Of a DNA stretch of 64,000 nt, positions 49,406 through 53,021 are shown in pieces. Position 1 is the first letter of the stretch. Every line of letters starts with the position of its first letter. The stretch is from Bacteroidota bacterium (lineage in GTDB: Bacteria > Bacteroidota > Ignavibacteria > Palsa-1295), in the NCBI GenBank assembly GCA_018266755.1, contig JAFDZW010000005.1:1377963-1441962 (forward strand), read 5' to 3'. Position numbers and translations under genes: made by a program. A model generated the notes under the pieces. It was not told the DNA's origin and did not search any database. It saw only the letters and a list, made by a program, of their open reading frames with translations.

Positions 49406-50440
49406 ATGAGAACTCTAGTCTATCATCTATTAATCAGTGCCGCAGTCGTCTTGGCTGCAGGCGGTGTGGAACGAGCCTTCGTTTCGCACGCAGGGACCGG
49501 CCTGGCACCCGCCATCACGGGGACCAGCACGTCCGGCACACCGGTCGCGGCCAACGTACCGTCGGGCAAATGCACGATGGTCGGTGGGAGCGCAACCAAG
49601 GACATGACGTCCGAGAATACCGCGTTCAAGGGTGCCAAGACCGACCCGGAAGAATGCGTGAAATGCCATGAAGACGAAGTCGCTTCGTACAAGAGCACGA
49701 CGCATGCAAAATCCTGGCAGAATGGCCAGTCATGCGAAAGCTGTCATGGTGAATCCGCCAAACACGTGGAGACTGGTGGTGCCCCCGGCACGATCCAGAC
49801 GATGAAAGGCAAATCGGCGAACGAAGTGTCGCAGACCTGCCTCAATTGCCATCAGCGCCCGGGCGAACAGAGCCATGGTCAACTGAGCGAGCATTTCCGC
49901 GCCGGCGTCGGCTGCACCAGCTGCCACGACGTGCACCCGAGTGCTCAGCATAAGCATGAAATGAACAATGCCGGTATGAGCGCAATGCTCAAAGGCAAGC
50001 AGACAGACCTGTGTCTCTCCTGTCATAATACGGTTAACTCGGACTTCAACAAGCCGACGCATCACCGTCTGAAGGAAGGCATCGTCGAATGCTCCAGTTG
50101 TCATAACCCGCACGGCACGACGCAGGAACATCAGCTTCGCGCCGACAAGAAGACCCTCTGCTTGAACTGTCACCAGGATAAACGCGGACCGTTCGTGTAT
50201 GAACACAACGCGACGGCTCTCGAGGGTTGCGTCGCCTGTCACGAAGGACACGGCAGCTCCGCTCGAAACCTGTTAAAGGATCGCGATCCTCGAACGCTGT
50301 GCATCAGCTGCCACTCGAAAGAGATCGGCGCCGGAGTACCGCATAGCCGCGCAAACTTCAGTCTGCAGACAACCGGCGACTGCACGCGCTGCCACAACAC
50401 GATCCATGGTTCGAACCGTGACGAATACTTCATCCAATAG
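49406..50440 (+). CDS. Decaheme c-type cytochrome, DmsE/MtrA family
   Basis: 344 residues with a signal sequence (MRTLVYHLLISAAVVLAAGG) and ten CxxCH heme sites in order: CVKCH, CESCH, CLNCH, CTSCH, CLSCH, CSSCH, CLNCH, CVACH, CISCH, CTRCH. Size, heme number and spacing fit MtrA/DmsE/PioA proteins, which form a heme wire inside an outer-membrane barrel and carry electrons between periplasm and cell exterior. The gene is followed 8 bases later by a large beta-barrel gene, which supports this. The first Cys in GKCTMVGG is not part of a heme motif. Expression may depend on the sigma-54-like site and leader upstream. Confidence 0.92.
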   Translation: MRTLVYHLLISAAVVLAAGGVERAFVSHAGTGLAPAITGTSTSGTPVAANVPSGKCTMVGGSATKDMTSENTAFKGAKTDPEECVKCHEDEVASYKSTTHAKSWQNGQSCESCHGESAKHVETGGAPGTIQTMKGKSANEVSQTCLNCHQRPGEQSHGQLSEHFRAGVGCTSCHDVHPSAQHKHEMNNAGMSAMLKGKQTDLCLSCHNTVNSDFNKPTHHRLKEGIVECSSCHNPHGTTQEHQLRADKKTLCLNCHQDKRGPFVYEHNATALEGCVACHEGHGSSARNLLKDRDPRTLCISCHSKEIGAGVPHSRANFSLQTTGDCTRCHNTIHGSNRDEYFIQ

Positions 50441-50448
50441 GAGGGCAT

Positions 50449-52800
50449 ATGAATACCATCAAACAATTCAGATCATTCGCCCTATTGACGCTTGCGACGC
50501 TCGCACTGCTGCTGAGCACCAACGTCAATGTGCATGCACAGGATGAACAGCCGAACTTCCAGGCAGGGCCGTACCTCTTCAACTTCGGTCTCTCGGCCGG
50601 ATTCCTGAGCACCACGACGGCACAGCCGAGCGGCTCCGCGAATCCGAACGACTACTGGGCACAAGAGCGCTACTACGAAGCGATGAACTATCGCACGGGA
50701 ATCAAGATCAACTCGCTCAATCTCTATGGCGAGAAGAGCGGCAAAGAAGGGTTCTTCGACGAGCTCTATGTCAATGCCGACGGTCTTGGCGATCCGTACA
50801 CGACGGCCAGCATCCGTATGCGCCAGTTCAACGCATTCGATTTCAAGATCGACTACCGGAACATGAAGTATTTCCTGAACCGCAACGACTCGATCTATAC
50901 CGGACTGCATAAGTTCGACGAGACGCGCGACTTCCTGAATGCGTCGCTCGGTATCGACGTCTCAAACGACATCAACGTCAAGTTGATGATGAACTCGACC
51001 GGCCATAGCGGCAACTTCACGCAGACGCTCTCCCCGTTCATCGACGGCGGCGAAGAGATCGGCGGCGGAGTGAAGAACGGTGTTGCTCAGGGAGACGGAA
51101 CGTTCGGCACGTATGCTCGCGGAAATATCTATTGGATCAATACGCCGGCAAACGACCGTACGAACGAATACAAATTGCAGGGCACGTTCAAGTTCGCCGA
51201 TCATACGGCCTTGACACTCGGCGGCGGTATTCGCCAGTACACGCAGGATATCGAATACACACCGTTGAGCGACACCGCGTTGACATACTATACCGCAAAG
51301 GGTACGGTCAACTGGGCAGGCGTATTCGCCGGTTTCCCGAACAGCCCGGCAACGATCAGCAAAGCGAACACCAATCCGCTCAATTCGTACGATTGGAAAG
51401 AAACCCGCAAAGGCAGCACGCCGATGGGGTACCTCGAACTCGTCACACGCCCGATCGACCGGTTGGCCGTCACGGCGAACGTGAACTACGAGAAGACGGA
51501 CGTCGACGGCACGACGATCGAAGGTACGCTCGACGGCTGGATGCCTTCGGCAGCAGCGTCACTCGGCGGACCGAAGACTTCGCAGGCCCGCGATATCCTC
51601 TATACCGCTTCCGGCGACAACAAGAGCACGTACTCCACGCTACTCGCGTCGTTGACCGCAGCGTATGACATCACCGATCAACTCGGCGCGACCGTGCTTT
51701 ATCGTATGACGAGCACCGATCTCACGAGCGAAGGTTCGCTACATGGCAATCTTCTTACGAACGACTCCGCCGCAGGCGGTGCCCCGACGCACCAGCTCTA
51801 TGATGCGACGTTCGACACCAAGATTACCAATAAGGTCAGCCAACAGTTGATCCAGGCGTTCGTCAACTACACGCCGATCAATATGCTCAATCTGCGTGTG
51901 GGTGTGAACTATAATTTACGTTCGCCGGAATACGATCGCGCGGTCGATGGTGTGGAAGATTCCGCATCGAACACGAACATGTCACGCGAAACCAAAGGCC
52001 TGGGCGAGTTCTTCAGCTTCTGGTATCGCCCGATCCATGAGATCAAGCTCAGCGGTAGTGTCACGAACACCAACTCGAAGTCCTACATCCATGGAACGAC
52101 GACACAGGTCGATGCACCGATCCGCATCGAGCCCGAGAACATGCTCAACTACAAAGTGGGTGTCGATTTCGACCCGATCTCGGATCTGCGCGTCAATGTG
52201 CACTACTCCGGCCTCAAGGGTTCGAGCGACCTGCTGAACATGATCCCGCTCGTACAGACGTACAATCCGACGCTCGATTCGAAGATGTCGTCGATCGCCG
52301 GTACGATTGCCTATACGCTCATGCGTCATACGACGATCGCCGTCACCGGTGAATACCGCACGAACGACTTCGTCGTCCCGTCAAGCTATACCCGCGGCCA
52401 GGTCGATCCGACCCCGCTCTATGGCGATTCGCTGACGATCAACGTCGAACAGCATACGAAGGACATGAGTATCGATGCTTCGATCATCTCGAACCCGATC
52501 CCCGAATTGCACCTCATGGTCGGCTATTCGATGATCGATTCGAAAGAAGGAAGCTACGTGACGCCGGACACCAAGACCGGTATCGCACCTGACCTCGTAC
52601 GCATCGGCGGCCCGTACACCTGGAGCCTGATCCATGCTTCGGCGTCGTATGATATAACCAAGAACATCGGTGTCATGGTGGACTACCAGCTCGCACAGCA
52701 GAAGGAAGAAGCCATCTATGACAATACGGTGAACTATGCAGGCGTCGTCAATAACTACAAGGCGAGCCTGATCCGTGGAAGTGTCTATATCCATCTCTAA
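50449..52800 (+). CDS. Large outer-membrane beta-barrel, MtrB/PioB-like
   Basis: 783 residues. AGGAGG with ideal spacing before the ATG. Signal: SFALLTLATLALLLSTNVNV then HAQ. The mature chain is a succession of amphipathic strands with aromatic girdles and short turns (NFGLSAGFLSTTT, YRTGIKINSLNLYGEKSG, YKLQGTFKFADHTALTLGGG, FVNYTPINMLNLRVGVNYNL, LIHASASYDITKNIGVMVDY, ASLIRGSVYIHL) compatible with 26-30 strands, as in MtrB. The N-terminal CxxC of Shewanella MtrB is absent. Identification rests on size, topology and its pairing with the decaheme cytochrome; sequence alone is not enough. It ends in an aliphatic-leucine C-terminus suited to Bam insertion. Confidence 0.65.
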   Translation: MNTIKQFRSFALLTLATLALLLSTNVNVHAQDEQPNFQAGPYLFNFGLSAGFLSTTTAQPSGSANPNDYWAQERYYEAMNYRTGIKINSLNLYGEKSGKEGFFDELYVNADGLGDPYTTASIRMRQFNAFDFKIDYRNMKYFLNRNDSIYTGLHKFDETRDFLNASLGIDVSNDINVKLMMNSTGHSGNFTQTLSPFIDGGEEIGGGVKNGVAQGDGTFGTYARGNIYWINTPANDRTNEYKLQGTFKFADHTALTLGGGIRQYTQDIEYTPLSDTALTYYTAKGTVNWAGVFAGFPNSPATISKANTNPLNSYDWKETRKGSTPMGYLELVTRPIDRLAVTANVNYEKTDVDGTTIEGTLDGWMPSAAASLGGPKTSQARDILYTASGDNKSTYSTLLASLTAAYDITDQLGATVLYRMTSTDLTSEGSLHGNLLTNDSAAGGAPTHQLYDATFDTKITNKVSQQLIQAFVNYTPINMLNLRVGVNYNLRSPEYDRAVDGVEDSASNTNMSRETKGLGEFFSFWYRPIHEIKLSGSVTNTNSKSYIHGTTTQVDAPIRIEPENMLNYKVGVDFDPISDLRVNVHYSGLKGSSDLLNMIPLVQTYNPTLDSKMSSIAGTIAYTLMRHTTIAVTGEYRTNDFVVPSSYTRGQVDPTPLYGDSLTINVEQHTKDMSIDASIISNPIPELHLMVGYSMIDSKEGSYVTPDTKTGIAPDLVRIGGPYTWSLIHASASYDITKNIGVMVDYQLAQQKEEAIYDNTVNYAGVVNNYKASLIRGSVYIHL

Positions 52801-52836: not shown

Positions 52837-52874
52837 AAGGGCCGCTTCCATCCGTGGAAGCGGCCCTTCGTTTT
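52837..52874 (+). terminator. Rho-independent terminator of the cytochrome-barrel operon
   Basis: AAGGGCCGCTTCCA (52837-52850), loop TCCG, TGGAAGCGGCCCTT (52855-52868), then CGTTTT. The upstream AAAA would let it work in both directions. Confidence 0.93.
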
Positions 52875-53021
52875 ACAGCAGATCGTTTGTTGCCACGGCC
52901 ATAGGGCCGTTTTTTTACATTGAAGTGCACACGTGGGAGGGACTCTTGATCCATGCGCGTACGGATCAATTAACAGTGAGGAAGTTACAGATAGTAGCTC
53001 CGTCTCGACCGTAATAACTTC

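Follow-up and report, generated by a model that had tools for sequence, protein, structure and literature searches.

A probable porin-cytochrome electron conduit with a new branch of predicted 26-strand barrel in a Kapaibacterium-like bacterium

Can a gene for a multiheme cytochrome and the gene directly behind it, whose product matches no described sequence family, together encode a route for electrons across the outer membrane? The question is raised by two adjacent genes in a 64,000-nucleotide stretch of DNA, here called the window, from contig JAFDZW010000005.1 of a Bacteroidota bacterium (assembly GCA_018266755.1). The first encodes an exported decaheme c-type cytochrome and the second a large beta-barrel. 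We computed the heme content and family of the cytochrome, the fold of the barrel, the conservation of the operon, the co-occurrence of a NapC-like gene and the absence of MtrC/OmcA, and conclude that the two genes very probably encode a porin-cytochrome electron conduit of the MtrAB/MtoAB type with a new branch of barrel, in which inward flow is the likelier direction. An initial annotation of the window had proposed that electrons pass across the outer membrane in this way, a proposal that is supported by the match of the cytochrome to TIGR03508, the match of the barrel to the MtrB fold and the conservation of the pair.

The cytochrome contains ten CXXCH motifs (at residues 84, 110, 145, 170, 203, 229, 252, 275, 299 and 326), compared with 0.09 on average and at most 3 in 20,000 shuffles of its residues, and every other open reading frame in the window has at most one. 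Its assignment to the MtrA/DmsE type was confirmed by TIGR03508, which it matches above the curated cut-off (202.9 versus 192.2 bits) over residues 82-339 and nearly the full model (positions 3-257 of 258). The competing placement among periplasmic nitrite or tetrathionate cytochromes found no support, as scores for the pentaheme nitrite (NrfB) and octaheme tetrathionate models fell far under their cut-offs. The nearest solved structure by sequence is 6r2q_A (E 3.4e-32), from an entry entitled “Structure of the Mtr complex” in which the molecule name is displayed as cystathionine beta-synthase, apparently a labelling slip. All ten motifs align with those of MtrA from Photobacterium and from a relative of the same class. 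In a ten-row alignment of these two proteins with the cytochromes of the window's family, exactly ten histidines outside the motifs are conserved (100, 120, 163, 177, 220, 236, 267, 282, 313 and 334), seven of them invariant and three present in nine rows; this is the number needed for bis-histidine ligation of ten hemes, and these residues could be the distal ligands. The protein is conserved in seven further homologues, and in a tree of MtrA proteins the cytochromes of the window's family form a separate, well-supported clade, with long branches that forbid a finer reading. All homologues have an N-terminal hydrophobic segment; in several of them no clear cleavage site is apparent, and the segment may possibly act as an uncleaved membrane anchor. 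The linker behind this segment carries Cys56 (window 49571-49573), outside the heme motifs and in an SGxC context, in seven of eight homologues.

The curated model matched by the cytochrome bears the name “DmsE family”, and DmsEF shares the cytochrome-barrel architecture, so that the pair might be imagined to feed a dedicated extracellular reductase, for dimethyl sulfoxide or iodate, rather than a mineral. We consider this very unlikely, given that no molybdenum reductase genes occur in the neighbourhood in the window or were seen in the neighbourhoods of family relatives; such a reductase was seen only beside a conduit of a different barrel type (PF11854) in genome G680 (L153).

The barrel has an N-terminal signal, and the A-Q pair at residues 30-31 is invariant in all homologues. 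It contains no cysteine at all, and hence none of the N-terminal CxxC of Shewanella-type MtrB, in agreement with the initial annotation; Photobacterium MtrB, in contrast, has the motif CSDC. An AlphaFold2 (AF2) model built with nine homologues (predicted local distance difference test score, pLDDT, 70; predicted template modelling score, pTM, 0.61) has 26 long strands and, as read from the model, short periplasmic turns, long extracellular loops and both termini in the periplasm. MtrB, PioB and MtoB are likewise 26-strand barrels (PMC10654088). When the model was compared with 350,542 PDB chains using Foldseek, the top match was MtrB (6r2q_B; E 2e-14, template modelling (TM) scores 0.58/0.69), followed by TonB-dependent receptors at TM scores of about 0.33-0.41; an unrelated porin family such as the TonB receptors, for which the initial annotation had allowed, is thus well behind MtrB, and no plug or TonB domain was matched in Pfam. 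By this model the barrel has the fold of MtrB but lies outside the described MtrB/PioB sequence family. The initial description of the pair as “PioAB-like or new variant” accordingly holds in its second half, the barrel not being detectable as a member of that sequence family.

The arrangement of the two genes is that of an operon (Table 1). Both reading frames of the initial annotation, the 344-residue frame with its ten heme motifs and the 783-residue frame, were recovered at exactly the same coordinates, as were the 8-base gap between them and its AGGAGG site. A scan found no terminator-like site on the plus strand between cytochrome and barrel, and hairpins lie 3′ of the barrel gene; the first of these, found by direct reading and not in the list of the scanner, is the probable operon terminator. 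Across the region, terminator-like sites are no more numerous than expected from shuffled sequence.

Table 1. Features of the cytochrome-barrel locus, in window coordinates.
Feature	Position	Strand	Basis
Decaheme c-type cytochrome (MtrA/DmsE family), exported, 344 amino acids	49406..50440	+	TIGR03508 match; 6r2q_A best PDB sequence match
Signal peptide or anchor and ~60-residue low-complexity linker 5′ of the first heme	49406..49654	+	
Heme domain, ten CXXCH motifs, residues 84-330	49655..50395	+	Motif count, alignment
Ribosome-binding site (AGGAGG) for the barrel; overlaps the stop codon of the cytochrome gene	50439..50444	+	Direct sequence reading
Outer-membrane beta-barrel, 783 amino acids, predicted cytochrome sheath, without cysteine	50449..52800	+	AF2 model, Foldseek
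Barrel strands 1-26, residues 42-782	50572..52794	+	AF2 secondary structure
Stem-loop, 12-bp perfect stem GGGCCGCTTCCA-TCCG-TGGAAGCGGCCC, then TTCGTTTT; probable terminator	52839..52866	+	Direct reading
Terminator-like hairpin, then TTTTTT	52895..52910	+	Terminator scan

The cytochrome and barrel frames are kept as a pair in relatives, which excludes a chance open frame. Of the 13 genomes in the window's family, seven have the barrel, as do two in a phylum-wide sample of 396, which both belong to this same family; a decaheme gene lies 5′ of the barrel wherever the contig permits. Two genomes, G007 and G008, have two copies of the pair each. Those of G008 stand in tandem (L026:7108-14491) and have barrels only distantly alike, a conduit that was duplicated and has diverged; a PF11854 match to one G008 barrel copy (18.9 bits in the genome search) was not reproduced by direct scan and was set aside. 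The relatives that carry names are Candidatus Kapaibacterium sp. and unclassified Bacteroidota or Ignavibacteriae bins, consistent with the Kapabacteria-like host suggested at the outset. Other families of the same class (G299, G479, G493, G527, G555, G668 and others) have MtrA-type cytochromes with PF11854 barrels, which scored 218-403 bits in the genome search. By sequence, then, the window's family has its own type of barrel together with its own clade of cytochrome.

A gene module shared between families bears on the task of this barrel. In G002 the conduit pair stands in a run with genes for c552-like, Rieske, cytochrome b-c, Cyc2-signature, cupredoxin-type and GltD-like proteins, two cytochrome b halves and an octaheme protein. 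G493, which belongs to a different family, has these same cupredoxin, GltD-like, cytochrome b and octaheme genes behind a monoheme-decaheme fusion and a PF11854 barrel. Between the two genomes the GltD-like proteins are 74% identical, the cytochrome b proteins 78% and 65%, the octaheme proteins 59% and the cupredoxins 58%, compared with 34% for the conduit cytochromes and no detectable similarity between the barrels. The comparison supports the view that the window-type barrel performs the role of the MtrB/PioB barrel, and it hints at a conduit cassette that can be replaced. The fusion itself, a monoheme cytochrome joined N-terminally to an MtrA-type decaheme (11 CXXCH motifs) 5′ of a PF11854 barrel, occurs in both G493 (L151:8166-9488) and G680 (L153:6955-8229). 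The GltD-like protein of both modules (L025:1420-3321 and L151:12644-14527) is an NAD(P)-FAD/4Fe-4S oxidoreductase that could pass electrons from the conduit to NAD(P) or ferredoxin.

We infer that one protein is inserted in the other. By analogy with MtrA in MtrB, the exported ten-heme cytochrome would lie within the 26-strand barrel with its heme chain crossing the outer membrane, and electrons would pass straight between its outermost hemes and a donor or acceptor on the cell surface, without MtrC/OmcA, as has been proposed for PioAB and MtoAB. A periplasmic monoheme c cytochrome and a NapC/CymA-type tetraheme protein of the inner membrane would then connect the conduit to the quinone pool and the respiratory chain. 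The initial annotation had pointed out that no MtrC/OmcA-type surface cytochrome adjoins the pair; we found that this absence extends to all 13 family genomes, including that of the window, none of which has a match to TIGR03507. Matches to TIGR01905 (doubled CXXCH) in the window genome are confined to the conduit. Of the seven genomes with the conduit, six have a NapC/CymA (NapC/NirT)-type tetraheme gene, which all six conduit-free genomes lack (Fisher P 0.005, for genomes that are closely related by shared ancestry and so not independent). The search elsewhere in the window genome for a CymA-type quinol protein, as advised by the initial annotation, located this gene at about 473-474.4 kb of contig C2 (G000:C2; PF03264, 44 bits), adjoining a gene for a 122-residue monoheme c protein, for which the PDB yielded no MtoD match. 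The NapC/NirT-type protein (L046:1468-2187) has three CXXCH motifs and a CX4CH motif (CMTSGCH) as the fourth, and the same is true in the relatives read.

In G005, the closest relative found of the window barrel, a barrel C-terminus with 67% identity, has a NapC-like gene 3′ of it on the same strand. The product of this gene is 70% identical to the NapC-like protein of the window genome, and a 117-residue protein, a histidine kinase and a response regulator of G005 are 48-64% identical to neighbours of the window genome's NapC-like gene. From this arrangement the conduit and the NapC-like locus appear to be parts of a single system that became separated in the window genome, where the pair itself is flanked by housekeeping-like genes (by reading, aconitase-like, sugar-nucleotide and panB/ddl-like) and is thus isolated. 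In G003 (L028), c552, NapC, cytochrome and barrel genes stand together, a set that matches the gene content listed for mtoABD-cymA (PMC10654088). A bc-type complex and small c cytochromes were also considered as conduit-specific partners; since the bc gene is present in conduit-free family genomes as well and the window genome lacks its close form, this gene was dropped as specific evidence. In G008, about 15-20 kb from the conduits, there are genes that by reading encode a NosZ-like protein and a fusion of a NirK-like multicopper protein with cytochrome c (L076:13454-18636), and these might possibly link electron uptake to denitrification.

As to the direction of flow and the donor, we infer that the conduit would oxidise Fe(II), a mineral or a partner and deliver the electrons to respiration. 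The signature of the Cyc2 iron oxidase consists of AXPXFAR[Q/K][T/Y] upstream of CXXCH and PXL downstream (Keffer et al.; PMC8406198). The window genome encodes a 416-residue protein with this signature, AIPLFARKY...CFTCH...PLL (G000:C11 9887-11137, L074), which has no Pfam or NCBIfam match and may possibly be a fused cytochrome-porin iron oxidase. Its gene adjoins those for a diheme c protein and a carboxypeptidase-regulatory/cupredoxin-like protein. In relatives, proteins with a strict or relaxed Cyc2 signature are encoded a few kilobases from the conduit (L025:3999-5393, L028:3830-5317, L026:4890-6257 and L029:8050-9387). These Cyc2-signature genes, the lack of a surface cytochrome and the Mto-like gene content of G003 are circumstantial evidence on which we favour electron uptake as the main direction with moderate confidence. 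The same conduit could instead serve as an electron outlet, in which the NapC/CymA-type protein oxidises quinol and, with no surface cytochrome involved, electrons pass through cytochrome and barrel to humics, partner cells or minerals of Fe(III) or Mn(IV). Such conduits are reversible, and a NapC/NirT-type quinol dehydrogenase does co-occur with this one, a protein whose quinol-oxidising part in an outlet is played in Shewanella by CymA (PMC8805035). The absence of MtrC/OmcA from the 13 genomes, the restriction of TIGR01905 matches in the window genome to the conduit and the Cyc2-signature proteins beside the operon in relatives all argue against an outlet, which we regard as possible, though doubtful.

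Several results weigh against an inward-conducting porin-cytochrome conduit. The barrel and its homologues have no match among Pfam, NCBIfam and PDB sequences, including PF11854 and TIGR03509, and a profile of the barrel likewise retrieved nothing from the PDB sequences; as positive controls, Photobacterium MtrB scored 511 and 551 bits against PF11854 and TIGR03509, respectively, and the barrel beside the G299 decaheme 282 and 196 bits. Profile alignment with hhalign between the barrel family and PF11854 barrels reached a probability of 92% in one set-up, with reversed controls below 1%. This value did not hold up, since a block-shuffled control, one among 60, scored 87% and sub-alignments gave only 4-16%, so we treat sequence homology of the barrel to MtrB/PioB as unproven. 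An AF2 model of the cytochrome (eight sequences) attained a pLDDT of just 34 and was not used. The supporting genes are distant from the operon in the window genome, Cyc2-like genes are also found in conduit-free genomes of the family, and the direction is read from accompanying genes, for a type of conduit that can carry electrons either way.

The missing sequence-family match would also suit an unrelated large porin or TonB-dependent receptor behind a periplasmic multiheme cytochrome, with no conduit at all. We hold this to be highly improbable in view of the 26 strands with MtrB as top fold (TonB receptors reaching a TM score of about 0.36), the want of a plug or TonB domain in Pfam, the strict conservation of the pair across the family and the exchange of the barrel for a PF11854 barrel within one module. 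More speculatively, the barrel could be an independently recruited 26-strand barrel that has converged on an MtrB-like sheath, as opposed to an MtrB that has drifted, in a cassette exchangeable within a conserved respiratory module, and its hosts could be unrecognised electron-uptake (Fe(II)- or mineral-oxidising) Kapaibacteria equipped with both conduit and Cyc2; we offer this combined proposal tentatively and think it unlikely.

The preferred reading, a porin-cytochrome conduit, has practical consequences. Annotation pipelines detect MtrB-type barrels through PF11854 and TIGR03509 and would leave the window barrel hypothetical, so that conduits with this type of barrel have probably been overlooked. 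The locus also points to trans-outer-membrane electron transfer in a little-known Kapaibacterium-like lineage, for which our literature search found no report of extracellular electron transfer, and the conduit, NapC-like and Cyc2-like genes are specific candidates for electron uptake from iron or minerals.

Among known systems, the pair resembles MtrAB of the Shewanella MtrCAB complex (6R2Q) in its same-family decaheme, its predicted strand number, its nearest PDB fold and its order of cytochrome then barrel. It differs from MtrCAB in lacking MtrC/OmcA, from MtrB in having a barrel without CxxC, outside PF11854/TIGR03509 and of 783 amino acids compared with 649 residues in 6r2q_B, and from MtrA in its longer linker before the first heme. 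Geobacter Pcc (OmbB-OmaB-OmcB) likewise combines a barrel with a periplasmic multiheme cytochrome; however, Pcc has 8-heme and 12-heme cytochromes, one of them in the outer membrane (PMC4245776), whereas the window system carries ten hemes and lacks a partner at the surface. MtoAB(D)-CymA of Sideroxydans and PioABC of Rhodopseudomonas are similar in pairing a decaheme with a 26-strand barrel and no surface decaheme, and in the monoheme c cytochrome and NapC/CymA-type protein of the genome, which form a single cluster with the conduit in G003. Unlike MtoAB and PioAB, the window barrel is undetectable as PioB or MtoB and the partners are at another locus in the window genome; the high-potential iron-sulfur protein of PioABC (PioC) was not seen in the neighbourhoods read, a genome-wide PioC search not having been made. 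The PF11854 conduits of the same class have barrels distinct from those of the window's family, which fall below PF11854, and share with the window an MtrA-type decaheme directly 5′ of the barrel and, in G493, the partner genes of G002. They offer a natural comparison of two very different barrels that apparently serve heme wires of one type, and do so even inside a shared gene module.

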